Source: Gammaproteobacteria bacterium (GTDB taxonomy: Bacteria; Pseudomonadota; Gammaproteobacteria; Steroidobacterales; GCA-2729495). From it: DNA of 64,000 bases. The stretch is taken from NCBI GenBank assembly GCA_016874095.1, contig VGVH01000003.1, positions 1 to 64,000 of the forward strand. Reading direction: 5' to 3'. Shown here piece after piece: positions 1 to 23,521 of this stretch; within the stretch, counting starts at the first letter, position 1; each line of letters starts with the position of its first letter. Under the pieces are notes generated by a model. The model saw only the letters and a list, made by a program, of their open reading frames with translations. It was not told the DNA's origin and ran no database searches. A program made the position numbers and the translations under genes.

Positions 1-231
1 CGACAGCAACCACGACGGAGCCGGCGAAAACCCGCTGCCGTGGCACATGGCGCTGCATTTGGCGCATCCACTGAAGCGGGTCCTTTCGGTCCCGAGTTCA
101 GGATCCGCCCTATCGCGAGACGGCGGCAATTGGCGGCGCATCTGTACCCGCGGGAGATCGAGTTCGTGACCGACCTGCCCAAGACGCCAGGCGGGAAGGT
201 GCAGCGGTTCTTGCTGCGCGGGCGTGGATAG
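1..231 (+). pseudogene. C-terminal remnant of an acyl-CoA synthetase (AMP-forming), cut by the window edge
   Basis: The frame is open from the first base to a TAG at 229-231. Its last ~33 residues, roughly from position 130, read like the closing segment of the AMP-binding acyl/aryl-CoA ligase family: AAHLYPREIEFV followed by DLPKTPGGKVQRFLLR. That segment contains the A10-type PKTPxGKxxR motif, whose lysine acts in adenylation. The ~43 residues before it do not resemble the family's C-terminal domain in this frame, so the upstream part is probably rearranged or frameshifted, although the gene also runs out of the window. Such ligases activate carboxylic acids for beta-oxidation-like degradation, which fits the CoA racemase gene 113 bases downstream. 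Calling it a remnant rather than an intact gene tail is an inference. Confidence 0.5.
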
Positions 232-343
232 CGCAGCCTGTGCTCATAGGGCGACGCGGGGTGTTTGAACTGACCATTCTCGACACGACGGCATCCCAGC
301 CCCGCGCGCGGGTGGCGTCATCGTTTTTGAGGCTGCACGCACG

Positions 344-1486
344 ATGGGACCTCTGCAGGGACTGCGCGTAGTCGAGCTGGCCGGCATCGGCCCCGGGCCG
401 ATGTGCTGCATGCTGCTGGCCGACCTCGGCGCGGATGTCGTTCGCGTCGATCGGCTCGAGCCCAGTGGCTTGGGCGTGGAGATCGACAAGCGCTTCGAGA
501 TCAACGGCCGCGGCCGGCGCTCGGTAGCCATTGACACCCGCAAGGCCGCCGGGCGCGATGCGGTGCTGGCATTGGTCGAACGTGCCGACGTTTTGATCGA
601 GGGCTTTCGCCCCGGCGTGGCCGAGAAGATGGGTCTCGGGCCCGCCGACTGCCGGCAGCGCAACCCGCGCTTGGTCTACGGCCGCATGACCGGCTTCGGC
701 CAGCAAGGGCCGCTCGCGCAAGCCGCCGGGCACGACCTGAACTACATCGCGCTGACCGGCGTGCTGCATGCGATCGGCCCGGGCAGCAAGCCGGCGCCGC
801 CGTTGAATCTGGTGGGCGACTACGGCGGCGGTGCGCTGTACTTGGCCTTCGGCGTGATGGCGGCGCTCTTCGAACGCCAGCACTCCGGCCGTGGGCAGGT
901 GGTGGATGCGGCGATGGTCGACGGTGCGGCGTCGCTGGCGTCGATCTTCTACGGCTTGAAGGCGGCCGGCCGCTGGGACGCCGGTGCGCGCCAAGCCAAC
1001 TTGCTCGATGGCGGCACGCCGTTCTACGACGTCTACGAAACGGCCGATGGCCGCTACGTCAGCATCGCCGCGCTGGAGCCCAAGTTTTTCGCGACTCTGG
1101 CCGCGGCGATAGGGTTGGACGAGAGCTTCGTCGAACGCCAGTACGACCGCGCGCGGTGGCCTGAGATGCGTGAGGCGATCGCCGCCCGTGTGCGCGGGCA
1201 CACACGCGACGAGTGGAGTGCGCGTCTGGAGGGCACGGATGCCTGTTTTGCGCCGGTGTTGAACTTCGACGAAGCGTCGTCGCACCCGCATGCACGCGCG
1301 CGCGCTGCGTTCGTCGAAGTCGCCGGTGTGACGCAACCGGCGGCGGCACCGCGATTCGATCGCACGCCCGCCGCTGTGCCGCGGCCGGCGGTGGCCGTCG
1401 GCGCCCACACCGACGAGGTGCTCGCAGAAGCCGGCTTCGACGCCGCGGCAATCGCGGCGCTGCGCTCGGAAGGGGTCGTGCGGTGA
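344..1486 (+). CDS. CaiB/BaiF family CoA protein, alpha-methylacyl-CoA racemase-like
   Basis: This 380-residue protein belongs to the family III CoA-transferase/racemase fold. It most resembles alpha-methylacyl-CoA racemase, which interconverts (2R)- and (2S)-2-methylacyl-CoA so that branched or sterol side chains can enter beta-oxidation. The residues matching the known racemase acid-base set are visible: His130 in GHDLNYIALTG, Asp159 in LVGDYGGGALYL and Glu245 in AALEPKFF. The N-terminus PLQGLRVVELAGIGPGP and the GADVVRVD strand are typical, and the length is near the family's usual 360-390. The ATG at 344 follows a GAGG about 10 bases upstream. The neighbours are fragments of an acyl-CoA ligase and an enoyl-CoA hydratase, so it looks like the surviving member of a degradation cluster. 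A formyl- or carnitine-CoA-transferase function is less likely given the His/Asp/Glu set. Confidence 0.85.
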   Translation: MGPLQGLRVVELAGIGPGPMCCMLLADLGADVVRVDRLEPSGLGVEIDKRFEINGRGRRSVAIDTRKAAGRDAVLALVERADVLIEGFRPGVAEKMGLGPADCRQRNPRLVYGRMTGFGQQGPLAQAAGHDLNYIALTGVLHAIGPGSKPAPPLNLVGDYGGGALYLAFGVMAALFERQHSGRGQVVDAAMVDGAASLASIFYGLKAAGRWDAGARQANLLDGGTPFYDVYETADGRYVSIAALEPKFFATLAAAIGLDESFVERQYDRARWPEMREAIAARVRGHTRDEWSARLEGTDACFAPVLNFDEASSHPHARARAAFVEVAGVTQPAAAPRFDRTPAAVPRPAVAVGAHTDEVLAEAGFDAAAIAALRSEGVVR

Positions 1487-1517
1487 GTGCGCCCGCGGCC
1501 GGCCTCGAAGTGAGGCT

Positions 1518-1637
1518 CTACTGACTCCACTTCGGCGGTCGTTTGGCGTGGAAGGCCGCCATGGCTTCCTGCCAGTCCTTGGAACCCACCAAAAGCGCCA
1601 GCGACTCGAGCCCGAAGCGCCGAGTTCCTCTCTTGGT
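1518..1637 (-). pseudogene. C-terminal remnant of an enoyl-CoA hydratase/isomerase
   Basis: On the minus strand the last ~35 codons before the stop at 1518-1520 read like the end of crotonase-family proteins: LESLALLVGSKDWQEA followed by MAAFHAKRPPKW. The terminal helix and the KRPPxW ending are typical of the family. Upstream in the same frame (above about 1640) the translation no longer resembles a crotonase, so the catalytic domain is missing. The fragment converges on the CaiB-like gene with ~30 bases between them. The break lies about 130 bases from the tRNA-Glu 3' fragment at 1763, which suggests that element insertion or excision truncated it. The family assignment rests on a short match. 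Confidence 0.55.
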
Positions 1638-1762
1638 GATGACCATCCCAAATCCTGTGGCCGAAAAACGTGGTGATTCTTGCCCCACGCCGCGCCGCTC
1701 GGCTTCGTGAAAACCAAGGCGGCCCCCGTCTTGCCGGTCAGCAAGCGCCGTCGGTTCAAGTC

Positions 1763-1807
1763 CTTTCACGGCGGTAACCGGGGTTCGAATCCCTGTGGGG
1801 GCGCCAA
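1763..1807 (+). repeat. tRNA-Glu 3' half (anticodon loop to CCA), probable attachment-site scar
   Basis: This stretch is the 3' half of a tRNA-Glu. It contains the anticodon loop CTTTCAC with anticodon TTC (1766-1768), the 3' anticodon stem GGCGG, a T-stem CGGGG/CCCTG closing the T-loop TTCGAAT (1785-1791), the 3' acceptor strand TGGGGGC, discriminator G and an encoded CCA. Just upstream (1759-1762) the bases do not pair with GGCGG, and no D-arm or 5' acceptor strand is present, so this is not a functional gene. Similarity starting at the anticodon loop is the classic footprint left at the distal border of elements whose integrase targets the 3' half of a tRNA gene. A second, more diverged copy lies at 3574-3609. 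The orientation implies that the intact tRNA and the inserted DNA lie to the left. Confidence 0.75.
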
Positions 1808-1912
1808 TAAAAATAATACCTTCGCTGTCATGGCAAGGATTCTTCGGTAACTGGCGGAGCGGGAAGCGGTGCGATGGACACCGGCTGCCGACACGACCGC
1901 GTCCGCCGGTCT

Positions 1913-1937
1913 TGGCGTTACAAAACGTTACACGCCA
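1913..1937. promoter_or_regulatory. Operator-like inverted repeat with internal direct repeat upstream of the SOUL gene
   Basis: The sequence has perfect 6-base arms TGGCGT-N13-ACGCCA. Inside it, two CGTTACA heptamers start at 1916 and 1926, exactly one helical turn apart, around a central AACGTT palindrome. It lies 57 bases upstream of the SOUL gene start at 1994, where a regulator could act on that gene. The layout suggests a transcription factor site, but I do not recognise the regulator and no regulator gene is adjacent. Confidence 0.4.
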
Positions 1938-1993
1938 CCGAAACCGCAGTCATGGCCGCTGCGAACAATATGACTACGGAAGGAGCAATCTCC

Positions 1994-2632
1994 ATGTCAC
2001 GACGAAACATCATCGCCCGGGCAGCGCTGTTTGCAGGGCTCATAGGCGTCGGAGGGCAAGCCATGGCCATCGAGGAACCCAGCTACAGTGTCGTCAGTCG
2101 CAATGACTCCATAGAAATCCGCGAGTACCAGCCCTACGTGGTGGTCGAGACCTACGTCGAAGCCGGCTTTGAGTCGGCGGGCAATGAAGGTTTCCGTCGC
2201 TTGTTCCGCTACATCACCGGCGCCAACGCGGGTGGCGAGGAGATCAGCATGACCGCCCCGGTTGCTCAGCAGGCCGGCACTGAAATCGCGATGACCGCGC
2301 CGGTGGGCCAGTTGCGCGACAGCGGCGGGCACTGGGTCTCCTTCATGGTGCCGTCGCAATACAGCTTCGCCACGGCTCCGCGCCCGACCGAACCGCGCGT
2401 GCGCCTTCGGCAGGTTCCGGCCCAGCTGGTGGCGGCGGTCCGCTATTCGGGCTTCTGGAGCGAACGGCGCTTCGCGCAGGAAAAGGGGCGACTCGAGGCA
2501 TTCATGAGTGAGGCGGGTCTCGAAGCCGCTGGCGAGCCACAGATCGCCCGGTACGACGCGCCGTACGTGCCCCCGTTCATGCGGCGCAATGAAATCCTGA
2601 TCCCGCTGGCGGCAGGTAGCGATACGGAATAA
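1994..2632 (+). CDS. SOUL family haem-binding protein, exported
   Basis: This 212-residue protein starts at the ATG at 1994, which has a strong AGGAG eight bases upstream. The open frame extends further up but without a better start. Residues 1-25 form a signal peptide: RRN, a hydrophobic core LFAGLIGVGG, and cleavage near QAMA. The rest matches the SOUL/HEBP family, with EEPSYSVVSRNDSIEIREY at the start, the repeated SMTAPV/AMTAPV segments in the middle and a conserved C-terminal NEILIPL strand. The family binds haem or other tetrapyrroles. In bacteria it often accompanies photolyase, lipocalin and light- or singlet-oxygen-stress genes, and here a lipocalin follows 330 bases later. The physiological ligand cannot be read from the sequence. 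The gene lies between the two tRNA-Glu 3' ends. Confidence 0.85.
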   Translation: MSRRNIIARAALFAGLIGVGGQAMAIEEPSYSVVSRNDSIEIREYQPYVVVETYVEAGFESAGNEGFRRLFRYITGANAGGEEISMTAPVAQQAGTEIAMTAPVGQLRDSGGHWVSFMVPSQYSFATAPRPTEPRVRLRQVPAQLVAAVRYSGFWSERRFAQEKGRLEAFMSEAGLEAAGEPQIARYDAPYVPPFMRRNEILIPLAAGSDTE

Positions 2633-2696
2633 CGTCACGAGTCACCTGGCGAACCGAACCGGGTCCGCCGGATGGCTGGATGACAAATCGGATAAC

Positions 2697-2813
2697 TCAA
2701 AAGATGTCGGCGAGAACCACAAAACGGATGATTCCGGCCAGACAGATTACTCCGAGGACGATGAAAATGACCAACTCCGCGGTATCAGAAATATTCTTGA
2801 AGACCTTCGGCAT
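2697..2813 (-). CDS. Small hydrophobic protein of 38 residues, unknown function
   Basis: I do not recognise this gene. On the minus strand an ATG at 2811-2813 is preceded by a perfect AAGGAG nine bases upstream and opens a 38-codon frame ending in TGA at 2697-2699. The product begins MPKVFKNISDTAE and continues as a single hydrophobic stretch (LVIFIVLGVICLAGII), then RFVVLADIF. This predicts one transmembrane helix with a short polar N-terminus. It occupies most of the otherwise empty 330-base gap between the SOUL and lipocalin genes and points opposite to both. The strong ribosome site and clean helix favour a real gene. Small single-helix proteins like this often modulate a larger membrane partner or act as toxins, but nothing here selects between those. 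Confidence 0.55.
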   Translation of the reverse strand: MPKVFKNISDTAELVIFIVLGVICLAGIIRFVVLADIF

Positions 2814-2962
2814 AGTCGCCGCTCCTTGATGCGGGGAAATTTCTCAAGACAACTATTGTGGCGAATCTTGCCAGAAGGACGGCGCAGTTGCTCATCTTAT
2901 ATTGCAACGGACATGCATGATGTGGCCGGAGCACGCGGGATGATCAACCTCGGATATTCACG

Positions 2963-3520
2963 ATGCACCAACCTGCTCGAGTCACCGTCGCAATACTCTG
3001 GCTCGCCATGATAGCAGCCTGTGCCGGTTCGACGAATCTCGTTGCCCTTCGCGGCCGTGCCGAGCCCGTCGATCTCGACCGCTTCATGGGGCCTTGGCAC
3101 GTGATTGCGTACATTCCGATCCACCTCCCCCCGCTGTTCTCGGAGAAGGATGCGTACAACGGAGTCGAGACCTACCGTCTCGACAGCGACGGCAGCATCG
3201 CGACGACCTATAAGTTCCGTCGCGGCGGCTTCGACGGGCCTGAGAAGCGCTTTACACCTCGGGCGCAGGTGGTTAACGGGCCGGTCAACAGCGAGTGGAA
3301 GATGAAGTTCTTCTGGTACCTGCCGGCGGGCGACTTTCTGATACTCGACGTCGATCCCGCCTACGAGACGACCATTATCGGCGTGCCAGATCGCAAATTC
3401 GTCTGGGTAATGGCCCGCTCACCGTCCATCACGGATGACGCATACAGATCGCTCGTCGCACGGACGGCAGGGTTCGGCTACGACGTGCAGAAGCTGTCGC
3501 GGGTGCCGCAAAGCTGGTGA
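2963..3520 (+). CDS. Lipocalin family outer-membrane lipoprotein (Blc-like)
   Basis: This 185-residue protein has a signal peptide with a lipobox near residues 17-20 (MIAAC), which predicts lipid attachment to Cys20 and envelope localisation. After it comes the lipocalin signature: LDRFMGPWHVIAYIP is the G-x-W motif of strand A, followed by ETYRLDSDGSIATTYKFR and a C-terminal YxSLVARTAGFGYD helix. Blc-like lipocalins bind fatty acids or lysophospholipids and act in membrane repair or stress. No good ribosome site precedes the ATG, so the start is fairly but not fully certain. The gene is separated from the SOUL gene by the divergent 38-residue ORF and ends 54 bases before the second tRNA-Glu 3' copy. 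Confidence 0.85.
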   Translation: MHQPARVTVAILWLAMIAACAGSTNLVALRGRAEPVDLDRFMGPWHVIAYIPIHLPPLFSEKDAYNGVETYRLDSDGSIATTYKFRRGGFDGPEKRFTPRAQVVNGPVNSEWKMKFFWYLPAGDFLILDVDPAYETTIIGVPDRKFVWVMARSPSITDDAYRSLVARTAGFGYDVQKLSRVPQSW

Positions 3521-3573
3521 AGAAATTGCGCGACGTTTGCCCGCAGCCGTGAAGCCTGTCGGGTGGCGGACGC

Positions 3574-3609
3574 GCGGTAACCGGATTTCGAATCCCCGTG
3601 GGGACGCCA
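3574..3609 (+). repeat. Second, diverged tRNA-Glu 3' end (direct repeat of 1772-1807)
   Basis: This 36-base stretch matches 1772-1807 at 32 of 36 positions. It keeps GGTAACCGG, the T-loop TTCGAAT (3587-3593), the acceptor strand TGGGGAC, the discriminator and CCA. The T-stem has two mismatches (3585 and 3586) and the anticodon loop is gone, so it cannot be a tRNA. Its acceptor strand is closer to a standard tRNA-Glu than that of the first copy. It ends five bases before the stop codon of the next minus-strand gene. Together the copies bracket 1.8 kb and look like borders of stacked insertions. The outer, more decayed copy would mark the junction with the ancestral chromosome. Confidence 0.6.
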
Positions 3610-3613
3610 GTGA

Positions 3614-4264
3614 TCACCCGGTCTTGCGCAGGTACCACCCGAGCGCGCCTGCCCACACGATCGTCAGCTGCAGGTACGAAAAGCCGATCGGCGGAAAGAC
3701 GAAGCTGGCGAGCCCCGGGAACAGCATCAGCCAGCCATACCAGCCAAACCAGGGCGGAAACGCGCGAGTCTTGCGCGTCAGCCAGGCCAGCTGGCCCGCA
3801 GTCCAGCTCAGGCCGACGATGGCGAGCACGTTCACGACGCTGCGGATCATCGTGTTGATGAGCAGCACTTCTTCCCAGCGATCCGGGTTCACGTCGCGGA
3901 GTATCTTGGCGTAGACGGCGCCCGGGATGTCGCTCATGCCGGTCAGCAGGAAGCCGAGGCCAGAAAGGCCCGCAGCCAGCATCAGAAGTTGCGCCCCGAC
4001 CGGGTGCGCACCGAGAAACCGCTCTTTCAGCCCGAGGCCCAGAACCAGCATCGAGAATCCGCAGACGATGTGAGCCGTGCCACTGGTCAAGAACGAAAAC
4101 GAGAATTGCGCGTTCAGTATCTTCGCCATGTCCCCGTAGTCGCGCGCCTTGTCCACGAACCCGAGGTAGGTGGGTTCGAGCCACAGCGCGTTCATGTTGT
4201 GGACGAGCATGCAGGCGACGATGAACCAGGCGGCATTTGCTGCGGCTTTGTCGAGCGATTTCAT
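3614..4264 (-). CDS. Integral membrane protein of unknown function, about six helices
   Basis: I do not recognise a named family. The 216-residue start (MKSLDKAAANAAWF) is chosen because a GGAGC lies five bases upstream of that ATG. An earlier in-frame ATG 54 bases upstream adds a polar leader without a ribosome site. Five to six hydrophobic segments are evident: AAWFIVACMLV, the TSGTAHIVCGFSMLVLGLGL region, LLMLAAGLSGLGFLLTG, the RSVVNVLAIVGLSW region, and a Trp/Phe/Pro-rich C-terminal pair beginning WFGWYGWLMLFPGLASFVFP. No catalytic motif is visible. It is co-directional with and 11 bases downstream of the TerC-family gene, so the two probably share a transcript. Confidence 0.6.
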   Translation of the reverse strand: MKSLDKAAANAAWFIVACMLVHNMNALWLEPTYLGFVDKARDYGDMAKILNAQFSFSFLTSGTAHIVCGFSMLVLGLGLKERFLGAHPVGAQLLMLAAGLSGLGFLLTGMSDIPGAVYAKILRDVNPDRWEEVLLINTMIRSVVNVLAIVGLSWTAGQLAWLTRKTRAFPPWFGWYGWLMLFPGLASFVFPPIGFSYLQLTIVWAGALGWYLRKTG

Positions 4265-4275
4265 CTGAGCTCCTG

Positions 4276-5073
4276 TCACACAGTGGCTTGCGGGAGTGCC
4301 TGTCCGCAAAGCGTACAACGGGTAGCTGGCGACAGCTGCGGATCGTGGAGGCGAACCGGCTCGCCACGGCGCCGGAGCCGGATGTTAAGCGCCTCGACGA
4401 TGACCGAGAAAGCCATCGCGCTGTAGATGTAGCCCTTCGGGATGTGGAAGTCGAGGCCGTCGGCCATCAGCGCGATGCCGATCACCAGCAGGAAGGCGAG
4501 CGCCAGCATCTTGATGGTGGGGTGCCGGTTCACGAAGCCGCTGATGGTACCAGCGAAAACGAGCATGAAAATGACGGCGACGACGACCGCAGCAACCATG
4601 ATCTCGATGCGATCCACCATGCCCACGGCCGTGATGATCGAGTCCAGCGAGAAAATAATGTCGATCACCATTATCTGGCCGACTATCGCACCCATCGTGA
4701 CGCCGGCTGCCGCCGACGTTCCGCCGTGATCGTGTTCGACACCTTCGAGTTTCTGGTGGATTTCCATCGTGGCCTTGTAGATCAGGAAGAGACCACCGAT
4801 CAGCAAGACCAGGTCCTTGCCGGAAATCTCGTTCGCCATGACTGTGAAGAGCGGAACGGTGAGCTGCATGATCCACGTCAGGGTCGCCAGCAGGAGCAGG
4901 CGCGAGACCAACGCCGCGGCGATGCCCAGCTGCCGCGCCCTGGCTTGCTGGGCGGGCGGGAGTTTGCCCGCCAGGATGGAAATGAAGATCAGGTTGTCGA
5001 TGCCGAGGACGATTTCCAGTGCCGCGAGCGTCGCGAAAGCGATCCACGCATCCGGGGCAAGCAGCAGTTCCAT
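4276..5073 (-). CDS. TerC family integral membrane protein
   Basis: This 265-residue protein has about seven hydrophobic segments and the two signature acidic motifs of the TerC/YgdQ/YoaE group: EIVLGIDNLIFISILAG near the N-terminus and IDIIFSLDSIITAVGM in the middle. Members are linked to metal-ion (tellurite, manganese) homeostasis, probably exporting metal or loading secreted enzymes. The ATG at 5073 is preferred over one 12 codons upstream because an AGGA precedes it and family members begin MELLxxPxxW. The C-terminus carries an extra cytoplasmic tail with a CTLCG pair (TRCTLCGQAL), which may bind metal; I infer that from the cysteines only. The next gene downstream is the unknown membrane protein at 3614-4264. 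Confidence 0.88.
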   Translation of the reverse strand: MELLLAPDAWIAFATLAALEIVLGIDNLIFISILAGKLPPAQQARARQLGIAAALVSRLLLLATLTWIMQLTVPLFTVMANEISGKDLVLLIGGLFLIYKATMEIHQKLEGVEHDHGGTSAAAGVTMGAIVGQIMVIDIIFSLDSIITAVGMVDRIEIMVAAVVVAVIFMLVFAGTISGFVNRHPTIKMLALAFLLVIGIALMADGLDFHIPKGYIYSAMAFSVIVEALNIRLRRRGEPVRLHDPQLSPATRCTLCGQALPQATV

Positions 5074-5269
5074 CTTGTTCCTGTCTGGGGTGGAGGCCGG
5101 AGGGTGCACAAAAGACTAGCGTTTTCCGCCGACTGGCGCGACTGCCGGTGGACGGGGTACCGCGACTGCGACCTGCAGCTTGGACGGGCCTTGCCGCTTC
5201 CACTACCATGGGCAAGGTTGTTGTCGATTGACAGGGCCCGGCGGGTCATCCGGGCTGGGGCGCGATGCG

Positions 5270-7372
5270 GTGTCGTCCTCGCTCTTGAATCCTTCATCGG
5301 CGTATCTCGCCGCTGCCGTGGCGCATGCGGGGCTCGCCGTCTGGGCTCTGCTTGCCGGAGGTCGCGGTCTGCTGCGCTGGCATATCGCGGGCCTGGCGCT
5401 TGTCGGCGTCGCATGGGCGTCGTTCCTGGGCGTGACGGCAGGGCCGAGCGGATTTTCGGATGCCGGTCCCGTGGGCTTTGTCGTCGAGGCCGCATACGCA
5501 GCCGCGTGGTTTCTGCTCCTGCAGCGACTCCTGAGGGGTCCGTACCTGCAGTCGATGCCGTCCACGGTCCGGCTCGGTCTCGCGACACTATGGGCGGGCG
5601 TCATCGCCGTGGGTGCTGCCGCTTCCTGGTCCTGGTACCGCGGCGGCTGGGATGACTGGCTCGCCGGGCTGTTCAGCGCCCTTGTGCTGATGGCTGCACT
5701 TTGCGGAGTGGCGTTGACGGCCCAGTTGTGCAGGGATGCGCCTGTCGAAGGCCGGGACGCACTGCGTTTCCTGGTCGCCTCCGGTGCGCTCGCGACGGGC
5801 GGTCAGGCCCTGTTCGCAGGCGCCGGCCTGTTGGCCTCGGTAGTAACGCCCGCACTGCAGGTGGCCCGCGCTGCTCTGGTTGTACTCGCTGTGGCCTGTC
5901 TCGCGATGGCCGTGCGCCAGCGTCCGCAGTGGTCACTTGCGATCTTCGTGTCGCCGCAGGCGCGTACTTATCTGCCACGACTCCTGGTTACAGCAGGGTT
6001 TTTCTGCGCGGTGGTCGCTGCGGTTCCGCTGTTCCGCGCCTTTGATCCGGAGCAGGCCCAGGCCTTGTCGACCTGGCTGTTGCCACTGATCGGGCTGCCG
6101 CTCGGTGCGCTGGTTTTCTCGCAGTCGCTCAGTGCACGGCTACGCGTCTTCCTCAGCAAGCATTTTCTGCCGTTTCGTTACGACTATCGGGAGGAATGGC
6201 TGCGACTGATTGACACGCTGGCCTCACCTGAGCAGCGCCTGCCGCTGCCCGAACGCGCGATCAAGTCGGTCGCGCAGATCGTCAGCAGCCCGGCGGGCCT
6301 CCTGTGGCTGAGGCGCCAGGCCGACGGGGGGTTTACCTGTGCGGCCGGCTGGAATACGAAAATGTGGTCTGACGCGGTCGTCGAAGCCGGGGACGCGGCC
6401 GTTACCTTCATGCTGGAGCGCGAGTGGATTCTGGATACCGCCGAACTCGAACGCAATCCGGCTATGTACCGGGGTCTCGTGCGACCAGGCTGGCTGGAGC
6501 AGTTTCCGGAAGCGTTGTTGCTCGTGCCGCTGATCAGCAACCGTTCGTTGATCGGTTTCATGGTTCTGCGGCAGTCGAGTTCCGCTTTTCGGCTGACCTA
6601 CGAGGAAATCGACCTGCTGCGCACTTCGGGCCGCCAGGTCGCCGCCCACCTCGCCCAGTACGAAGCCGACCAGAGGCTTGCCGAAGCCAAGCAATTCGAG
6701 GCGTTCAACCGGCTGACAGCGTTCCTGATGCACGACCTGAAGAATCTGATCGCCCAGCAGTCACTCGTTGTAAAAAACGCTGTGCGCCACAAGGGAAATC
6801 CGAATTTCTTCGAAGACACGATAGCTACCATCGACAACTCGGTTGCCCGCATGAGCAGGATCCTGCAGCAACTGCAGAGCGGGGAGACGGGTGGACGGCG
6901 CAGCCGGGTGCGGCTCGCATCAAGCCTGCAGGATGCAGTGGAGCGCTGTCGCGGCCGCGCGCCGGAGCCACGATTGATCCAGGTTGACGATCGTCTCCAC
7001 GCGCAGATCGATCGCGACCGGTTCGCGATGATCGCGGCCCACCTCATCCGCAATGCGCAGGAAGCGACCGCAACTGAAGGCAAAGTCGAGATCCGTGCGA
7101 CGCGCGAAGGCAACCATGCTGTAATTACCATCGAGGATGACGGCTGCGGAATGGAGCCCGACTTCATTCGTACTCGTCTGTTCCGCCCGTTCGATACAAC
7201 CAAGGGCAGCAAGGGCATGGGCATCGGCGCTTACCAGGCCCGGACCCTGGTGGTCGATTCGGGTGGTTCGCTGGATGTGGCGTCCGAGCCGGGTCGCGGC
7301 ACCTGCATTACCATTCGTCTGCCGCTGACGGATTCCGTCGAGGCGATTGGCCGGGAAGGGCAGGTCGAGTGA
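5270..7372 (+). CDS. prsK: PrsK-type membrane sensor histidine kinase (PEP-CTERM/EPS system)
   Basis: This protein of about 700 residues has an N-terminal membrane domain of eight or more helices (to about residue 300), a GAF-like sensory region (about 330-470), then a kinase core. The core has the phospho-acceptor His488 in FLMHDLKNLIAQQ, an N-box LIRNAQEA, a G1 box EDDGCGMEPDFI and a G2 box GSKGMGIGAYQAR. The absence of the usual HE dyad (HDLKN instead) and the domain order match PrsK kinases that pair with a sigma-54 activator in bacteria with PEP-CTERM protein sorting and exopolysaccharide. The GTG at 5270 is chosen by family length; only a weak GGGG precedes it. Its stop overlaps the response regulator start by 4 bases. 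No EPS or PEP-CTERM gene is seen nearby. Confidence 0.85.
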   Translation: MSSSLLNPSSAYLAAAVAHAGLAVWALLAGGRGLLRWHIAGLALVGVAWASFLGVTAGPSGFSDAGPVGFVVEAAYAAAWFLLLQRLLRGPYLQSMPSTVRLGLATLWAGVIAVGAAASWSWYRGGWDDWLAGLFSALVLMAALCGVALTAQLCRDAPVEGRDALRFLVASGALATGGQALFAGAGLLASVVTPALQVARAALVVLAVACLAMAVRQRPQWSLAIFVSPQARTYLPRLLVTAGFFCAVVAAVPLFRAFDPEQAQALSTWLLPLIGLPLGALVFSQSLSARLRVFLSKHFLPFRYDYREEWLRLIDTLASPEQRLPLPERAIKSVAQIVSSPAGLLWLRRQADGGFTCAAGWNTKMWSDAVVEAGDAAVTFMLEREWILDTAELERNPAMYRGLVRPGWLEQFPEALLLVPLISNRSLIGFMVLRQSSSAFRLTYEEIDLLRTSGRQVAAHLAQYEADQRLAEAKQFEAFNRLTAFLMHDLKNLIAQQSLVVKNAVRHKGNPNFFEDTIATIDNSVARMSRILQQLQSGETGGRRSRVRLASSLQDAVERCRGRAPEPRLIQVDDRLHAQIDRDRFAMIAAHLIRNAQEATATEGKVEIRATREGNHAVITIEDDGCGMEPDFIRTRLFRPFDTTKGSKGMGIGAYQARTLVVDSGGSLDVASEPGRGTCITIRLPLTDSVEAIGREGQVE

Positions 7373-8751
7373 GCGAAACCAAACGGCGGCTACTTGTCGT
7401 CGAGGACGACAAAGGCTTGCAAAGCCAGCTGCGCTGGTGCTTCGCAGACTGTGAAGTCGTCGTAGCAGAAGACCGCAATTCGGCTCTCGCCCAGCTGCGG
7501 CGTCACGAGCCACCCGTCGTCCTGCAGGACCTGGGTTTGCCGCCGGATGCCGAGGGTGTAGCCGAAGGGTTTGCGACGTTGGAGCAGATTCTCGGTCTGG
7601 CGCCTTCGACGAAGGTGATCGTCGTGACCGGTCACGGCGACCAGCAGAACGCGGTCAAGGCAGTCGGCCTTGGCGCCTATGACTTCTACCAGAAGCCGGT
7701 CGACACGGACGTCCTGCAGCTCATCGTCAACCGCGCGTATCAGATACACGCGCTCGAGCTGGAAAACCAGCGCCTCGTCCGCGAGCAGAGGGCATCGCCG
7801 CTCGATGGTATCGTCGCGGCCAGTGAAAAAATGCTCCAGGTCTGTCGGATCATCGAGAAGGTCGCACCAACCAGTGCGACGACGCTACTGCTCGGCGAAA
7901 GCGGTACTGGCAAGGAGCTGCTTGCACATGCGCTGCACAACCTGAGTCCGCGCAAGGACAAGCCGTTCATCGCCATCAACTGCGCAGCAATCCCGGAGGC
8001 CCTGCTCGAGAGTGAGTTGTTCGGCTACGAGAAGGGCGCCTTTACCGGCGCAGTCAAGCAGACTCACGGCAAGATAGAGACCGCTGACGGTGGCACGTTG
8101 TTTCTGGACGAGATAGGCGACATGCCGCTGGCCTTGCAGGCCAAGTTGCTGCGCTTCCTGCAGGAGCGGGTCGTCGAGCGGGTTGGTGGCCGCGAGGAGA
8201 TTCCCGTGGACGTGAGGGTGGTGTGCGCAACGAATCAGGACCTCGATGCCTGCATCCGCGACGGCCGGTTCCGCCAGGACCTTTTCTACCGGATCAGCGA
8301 AATCACGATCCGCATTCCGCCGCTCCGCGAACGCGATGGTGGCCGTCTGGTTCTCGCCCGATCTCTGCTTGAGAAAGCAACTGCCCTGCACGGCCGGCGA
8401 ATCTCCGGCTTCACTCAGGATGCACAGAGCGCGATAGAGAATTACGCCTGGCCTGGCAACGTACGCGAAATGGAGAACAAGATTCGCGGGGCCGTGATCA
8501 TGGCCGAGGGCAAGCAGGTGACGGCCGGCGATCTTGGCCTCGCCGGCACTGATGCCACTCCACCGAATCTCAACCTGCGTGAGGTACGGCGCGAGGTAGA
8601 GACGCGGGCGATCACTCGCGCCCTCGCGTTCGCCAACGACAACGTGTCCCAAGCGGCCAAGATCCTCGGGATCACACGGCCGACGCTCTACGATCTGATG
8701 GAAAAATACGGCATACAGCCGGTAGAGTCCGGGCCGCCGAGCGGCGGGTGA
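7369..8751 (+). CDS. prsR: PrsR-type sigma-54-dependent response regulator
   Basis: This 460-residue regulator has three domains: a receiver (1-125) with VVEDD acidic pocket and phospho-acceptor Asp54 in VLQDLGLPPD; an AAA+ sigma-54 activator domain (about 145-380) with Walker A GESGTGKEL, the sigma-54-contacting GAFTGA loop and Walker B LFLDEIGDM; and a Fis-type helix-turn-helix at the end (NVSQAAKILGITRPTLYDL). The DLGLPPDAEGVAEGF stretch is characteristic of the PrsR group. It would activate -24/-12 promoters upstream of PEP-CTERM protein genes or exopolysaccharide genes in response to PrsK. Start GTG at 7369 overlaps the prsK stop and follows GGGAAGGG, indicating translational coupling. 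It converges with galE, whose stop is one base away. Confidence 0.9.
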   Translation: MSETKRRLLVVEDDKGLQSQLRWCFADCEVVVAEDRNSALAQLRRHEPPVVLQDLGLPPDAEGVAEGFATLEQILGLAPSTKVIVVTGHGDQQNAVKAVGLGAYDFYQKPVDTDVLQLIVNRAYQIHALELENQRLVREQRASPLDGIVAASEKMLQVCRIIEKVAPTSATTLLLGESGTGKELLAHALHNLSPRKDKPFIAINCAAIPEALLESELFGYEKGAFTGAVKQTHGKIETADGGTLFLDEIGDMPLALQAKLLRFLQERVVERVGGREEIPVDVRVVCATNQDLDACIRDGRFRQDLFYRISEITIRIPPLRERDGGRLVLARSLLEKATALHGRRISGFTQDAQSAIENYAWPGNVREMENKIRGAVIMAEGKQVTAGDLGLAGTDATPPNLNLREVRREVETRAITRALAFANDNVSQAAKILGITRPTLYDLMEKYGIQPVESGPPSGG

Positions 8752-23398: not shown

Positions 23399-23521
23399 GC
23401 GCGCGCCTTACAGGCAATTAAATCCACACCTGCTTCGACACGTGCGGCGGGGTGCCCGGTTCAGGTTCTGTCCGGGTTGCCGTCACGGGGAGCAGGGAGG
23501 CCCAAACCCGAAGGAGTCAAT

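Follow-up and report, generated by a model that had tools for sequence, protein, structure and literature searches.

Two displaced tRNA-Glu 3' ends mark a probable tandem of decayed integrative elements in a gammaproteobacterial genome

Background

What history is recorded by the 3' half of a tRNA gene that stands in a chromosome without its 5' half? Such a piece lies near the start of a 64,000-nucleotide stretch from the assembly of an uncultured gammaproteobacterium (GCA_016874095.1, contig VGVH01000003.1), the whole of which is called the window here. The genome is referred to as G000, and the window begins its contig C3. An earlier note on this DNA had taken the piece for the border of one element, with an intact tRNA-Glu and an integrase gene upstream of base 1. 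In our analysis, two integrative elements, both now decayed, very probably stand in tandem at a single tRNA-Glu gene; element A, with SOUL and lipocalin genes, would have entered first and element B, with a CoA-transferase gene, second. The features of the locus, in window coordinates, are as follows.

1 to 99, plus strand: scrap of an IS91-type transposase gene, which extends left onto contig C17 and there comes within 3 bases of the intact tRNA-Glu at its 3' end (BLASTN to the copy on contig C10)
121 to 231, plus strand: C-terminal scrap of an AMP-binding acyl-CoA synthetase, to the stop codon (PF13193)
344 to 1486, plus strand: family III CoA-transferase (CaiB/BaiF), full length, cargo of the proposed element B (PF02515, E 7.9e-90)
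1518 to 1625, minus strand: possible C-terminal scrap of an enoyl-CoA hydratase, weakly matched (phmmer against PDB)
1667 to 1750, minus strand: probable remnant, 28 codons long, of a tyrosine integrase of the tRNA-Glu family, from its catalytic domain (19-sequence HMM)
1762 to 1806, plus strand: copy 1, displaced tRNA-Glu 3' half, border of the proposed elements B and A (43 of 45 bases)
1807 to 1830, plus strand: probable left arm of element A, ATAAAAATAATACCTT... (like the sequence after tRNA-Glu in G034 and G154, less so in G011)
1874 to 2632, plus strand: SOUL heme-binding protein, cargo of the proposed element A (PF04832, E 6.3e-48)
2963 to 3520, plus strand: lipocalin (Blc-like), cargo of the proposed element A (PF08212, E 1.6e-32)
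3574 to 3609, plus strand: copy 2, displaced tRNA-Glu 3' end, probably the older (34 of 36 bases)
5180 to 8751, plus strand: prsK and prsR, right-hand flank of the site, conserved among relatives (TIGR02916 and TIGR02915 above cut-off; synteny)

Two displaced copies downstream of an intact tRNA-Glu

The piece first described is real, although its span, given as 1763-1807, was one base off. It corresponds to tRNA-Glu positions 32-76 (95.6% identity over 45 nt), and its reading as the displaced half left by a tRNA-targeting element is still the best one. It does not stand alone, as had been thought: a second, shorter 3' copy in the same orientation, 1803 bases further on, corresponds to tRNA-Glu positions 41-76 (94.4% over 36 nt). 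Copy 1 is therefore a border as proposed, but an internal one between two tandem remnants and not the outer edge of a single element. A 22-nt core of the tRNA gave two matches in the window at up to 3 mismatches and none in 100 dinucleotide shuffles. ARAGORN found no complete tRNA in the window. A third, weaker copy was sought between the tRNA and prsK and rejected, the best masked score of 18 being lower than the mean shuffled maximum of 20.5 (200 shuffles).

The intact gene is found on another contig. The first 127 bases of C3 are an exact overlap with the end of contig C17, and this match over the full length is the only one in the assembly. C17 holds a tRNA-Ala(GGC) and a tRNA-Glu(TTC), the latter at C17:179-254 on the minus strand, so that only 51 bases separate it from window base 1. 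The join rests on assembly overlap, not on reads. This placement bears out the prediction of an intact tRNA-Glu upstream of base 1 and leaves about 1.86 kb between the tRNA end and the far end of copy 1. With the intact tRNA upstream and the copy downstream, bases 1-1762 would lie inside the element, as had also been predicted.

Contents of the two segments

Segment 1, the proposed element B, begins with the IS91 scrap. BLASTN aligned it to the C10 copy over 22 nt at 95%, from the fourth base after the tRNA (E 2e-5), and over 56 nt at 84% (E 1e-12); a gapped alignment scored 124 against at most 54 in 50 shuffles, the scored query including the tRNA end. The C10 protein has Zn_Tnp_IS91 and Y2_Tnp domains. 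Where the tRNA end and the next bases read GGGGACGCCAGCC, the C10 transposase gene has GGTGACGCCGGCC, and this short likeness (GACGCC) makes a joint at short homology possible. The AMP-binding scrap matches PF13193 at residues 41-66 of its frame (E 0.002; 19.5 bits, below the curated cut-off of 24.5). For the candidate enoyl-CoA hydratase scrap, the best PDB match is 3g64 (phmmer E 0.0087), the sole hit below E 0.1; five of the six PDB matches at E up to 10 are named enoyl-CoA hydratase, and Pfam gave no match. The description of these genes as truncated catabolic genes thus holds, weakly, for the two C-termini, but not for the CoA-transferase between them, which is full length. Its best full-length relatives in the order sample are 57% identical; four genus members carry relatives elsewhere at 53-55% identity, and G008 has none at E 1e-60. 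Five interior ORFs scanned with Pfam included no transfer genes. The G+C content is 68.8% in segment 1, 60.4% in segment 2 and 64.1% in the window from 10 to 64 kb.

Segment 2, the proposed element A, holds the SOUL and lipocalin genes. Among the five other genus members listed, none had a SOUL match at E 1e-20. The lipocalin is matched by the Blc model below its cut-off. The idea that the two genes travel as a pair elsewhere was rejected: none of the 29 other SOUL loci examined holds the lipocalin at E 1e-5 within about 1.5 kb on each side.

The sequence right after copy 1 was compared with 32 sequences that follow the tRNA in other genomes. The closest were those of G034 and G154, with 13 of 16 bases each; the local scores were 22 for G034, 20 for G154, 18 for G011 and 16 for G008 and G009, the last two being genomes without a tRNA copy. 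Of 1000 shuffles, 16 gave a best local score of 22 or more; one sequence attained 13 of 16 bases in 4 shuffles, and two sequences together did so in none. G154 and G011 carry elements; G115 and G175, in which units are also present, do not match the arm, and G034 has no tRNA copy or integrase of the G011/G154/G115 family in the 13 kb before prsK. This likeness suggests that positions 1807-1830 are probably the left arm of element A. Copy 1 would then probably be the former tRNA end of element A, displaced later by element B.

A probable integrase scrap

The integrase gene expected upstream of base 1 did not materialize. The approximately 1.8 kb between the tRNA-Glu and copy 1 contains no integrase gene, just the probable 28-codon scrap, which adjoins the copy. 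The scrap peptide was first spotted by eye. Against an HMM of 19 family members, the peptide scores 10.1 bits and the 122-base region beside copy 1 scores 10.2 bits; none of 300 shuffled regions (best 4.4) or 2000 shuffled peptides (best 6.8; 1279 scored) reached its score. When the whole insert was scanned with the same HMM, the frame came second at E 0.38, behind an unrelated frame at E 0.2. The scrap had no match at E 10 in Pfam and PHROGs, two unrelated matches in PDB and none in the plasmid and phage searches, and it was absent from the listing of a four-sequence HMM. Its position and strand agree with those of the integrases of G011, G154 and G115 described below. The segment is probably the remnant of a tyrosine integrase, though not certainly so.

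Elsewhere in G000, the five PF00589 matches are on contigs C1, C9, C21, C31 and C38, and none is on C3 or C17. The tyrosine recombinases of C38, C31 and C9 are only 23-30% identical to the integrases of G011, G154 and G115, over 61-168 residues. As a separate observation, G000 has an integron integrase near a contig end (L224, C31:17246-17794, minus strand; TIGR02249 above cut-off).

Related elements at the same tRNA gene

Displaced tRNA-Glu 3' copies were found in two of 40 family genomes, G000 and G011 (E 1e-4; 37 of the 40 had any match). That screen excluded matches cut by contig ends (G003, G031, G039, G040), a second full-length match in G034 and five that covered positions 7-62 at 77%. 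A wider sample of the order (196 genomes, at least 141 of them matched) yielded at least three further confirmed copies, in G154, G115 and G175; a candidate pair in G060 proved to be two intact tRNAs. In G011, G154 and G115, the copies are free of mismatches (44, 47 and 50 nt, respectively), and the displaced copy, not the intact tRNA, has next to it a PF00589 tyrosine integrase gene that reads away from the copy. The integrases of these three genomes and of G013 all match PF00589 and are 31-41% identical to one another; G013 has no displaced copy in 19.6 kb. The G011 tRNA and its copy lie on separate contigs, and a phage capsid gene adjoins the intact tRNA. The copy blocks start at tRNA position 33 in G011, 30 in G154, 27 in G115, 31 in G175 and 32 in copy 1 of G000, all in the anticodon stem and loop. 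For sublocation, the source is reportedly Williams 2002.

The G175 case is at locus L191 (G175:C37), where the tRNA-Glu is at 6146-6221 and a perfect 46-nt copy at 5201-5246, both on the minus strand. The 0.9-kb unit between them encodes a PIN toxin and a MazE-like antitoxin only, with no integrase among its ORFs.

A scan of viral contigs with the four integrases kept 80 of 99 loci, and the 15 closest were examined. In four of these, a tRNA-Glu 3' half, oriented as expected, lies upstream of the integrase; two have another tRNA-like T-loop there. The remaining nine have no tRNA piece within 700 bases; L248, L250 and L251 had less than 150 bases of contig in that place. At L245, an intact tRNA-Glu(CTC) lies about 700 bases upstream of the integrase (ARAGORN, 13 of the 15 loci).

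Two side observations concern G006. At L041 and L327, a serine recombinase (PF00239, PF07508) and genes that look phage-like by eye come after the same tRNA-Glu, and another contig carries an 11-nt tRNA 3' end some 135 bases ahead of the prsK match (E 0.075). In the available text of PMC4383910, only tyrosine recombinases had been known to target tRNA genes.

The right flank and empty sites in relatives

The proposed comparison with relatives did reveal loci without these genes, in which the tRNA-Glu is close to prsK. Same-strand prsK comes after the tRNA-Glu in 17 of 31 relative loci, a count that includes G039, whose tRNA is cut by a contig end, and excludes G040, with 34 nt of the tRNA at a contig end. 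The gap, taken to the start of the protein match (which in G010 overlaps the tRNA end), is below 200 bases in seven of the 17; G007, a single-contig genome, has 27 bases, and the gap in G005 is as long as 5.2 kb. One genus has prsK on the other side in four loci (G021, G022, G023, G025). None of the 31 loci (3.5-20 kb) contains the CoA-transferase, SOUL, lipocalin, membrane protein or TerC genes at E 1e-10.

The membrane protein and TerC genes occupy positions 3610-5109 of the window, between copy 2 and prsK. This stretch is absent from the relatives' loci and has no third tRNA copy, so the 5.2-kb difference is not wholly explained by the two segments.

Other observations at these sites stand by themselves. 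The gap contents vary, with PhyH in L035 (G008), a glycosyltransferase in L097 (G044) and a sulfotransferase with a 2OG-Fe(II) oxygenase in L098 (G028), and these three have no tRNA copy at E 1. Further along the window, positions 23407-23506 match the Rfam t44 RNA (RF00127, 67.9 bits).

Comparison with known systems

Several known systems resemble this locus. CIMEs are att-flanked, have lost their integration genes and come to stand head-to-tail by successive insertion at one target gene, as described in the available part of PMC5704250. The tandem here is similar in having repeats at both ends, which are tRNA-Glu 3' halves, in its lost integration genes and in its head-to-tail order; it differs from CIMEs, as that text presents them, in that the segments are about 1.8 kb each, the copies have diverged and mobility seems not to be retained. 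Set beside an integron cassette array, the repeats here are tRNA-Glu 3' halves, and an intI gene of G000 is on another contig, C31. Also similar are the Dehalococcoides ssrA islands, which occur in tandem, have direct repeats of one RNA gene's 3' end between them and in some cases have no integration module (PMC3146451, available portion). Those islands, however, involve tmRNA and a serine recombinase, in contrast to tRNA-Glu and a tyrosine integrase family whose gene stands beside the displaced copy.

The anticodon-centred tDNA islands of Islander are likewise comparable, since here too an intact tRNA is followed downstream by a displaced 3' fragment in the same orientation, with the crossover at the anticodon (PMC4383910, as far as its text was available). 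The Islander filters given there reject candidates that are shorter than 2 kb or lack an integrase. Neither interval holds an integrase gene, and the segments (about 1.86 and 1.80 kb) exceed 2 kb only together, so each taken alone would be missed. Tandem decay at one target gene is thus already in print, in the parts of PMC5704250, PMC3146451 and PMC4383910 considered here, and the locus is a further example of a known process.

Proposed history and alternatives

The two copies, the overlap that places the intact tRNA, the relatives free of the inserts and the related elements with an integrase at the same tRNA are all observed. We infer the insertion order, the deletions and the joints. Element A would have entered by a crossover in the anticodon region and rebuilt the tRNA from its own att sequence, and the displaced 3' end of the host's tRNA would now lie at 3574-3609; copy 2, which is shorter and changed, would be the older copy. 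Element B would later have entered the rebuilt tRNA in the same way and moved the tRNA end of A to 1762-1806. Both elements would then have shrunk by deletion. B may have lost its left arm and nearly all of its integrase, so that the tRNA now abuts the IS91 scrap, perhaps joined at GACGCC, while A would have lost its integrase entirely. The genes kept would be the CoA-transferase of B and the SOUL and lipocalin genes of A.

A single element with its only border at 1762-1806 and its integrase upstream of base 1, as first proposed, would account for an intact tRNA upstream and a 3' copy. It is very improbable, given the short interval devoid of an integrase gene, the second copy at 3574-3609 and the arm-like sequence after copy 1. 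The copies are short and an IS91 scrap borders segment 1 on one side, as might be expected if the 3' halves had arisen by duplication or illegitimate recombination instead of site-specific integration. Such an origin is hardly credible, because the copy blocks start at tRNA positions 27-33 in five genomes, three of them with an integrase gene alongside, and because the longest direct repeat common to the two copy sites (window 1-6000 searched) is the 36-nt tRNA piece itself.

The segments could also be units that are still mobile, CIMEs or mini-cassettes without an integrase of their own, for which the enzyme is supplied in trans. The G175 unit, with its perfect copy and no integrase, fits this, and both G000 segments retain full-length cargo genes. 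We regard it as distinctly unlikely, however, since the two G000 copies are no longer identical to the tRNA, with 2 changes each (45 and 36 aligned bases, respectively), and copy 2 is shortened, B keeps gene scraps and seems to have lost its left arm, and no homolog of the G011 integrase is present in G000 at E 1e-10. A broader proposal is that tRNA-Glu in this order serves as a dock for tiny integrase-less units of 0.9-1.9 kb (toxin-antitoxin, CoA-transferase, SOUL with lipocalin), set head-to-tail like cassettes and moved by the integrase of visiting elements; we hold this to be distinctly unlikely as well.

Conclusions

Read as a tandem of two decayed elements, the locus is a clear example of a well-known process and not a new one. 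Its history is unusually readable, the order of events being traceable from the two tRNA copies, the probable element arm and the probable integrase scrap. The Islander filters (PMC4383910, available text) discard remnants of this kind, which are below 2 kb and have no integrase, so that such remnants may be under-counted. The locus further draws attention to an integrase family, several members of which use tRNA-Glu, with the gene beside the displaced copy, and it shows how the genes of an island can persist in a genome after its mobility has been lost.
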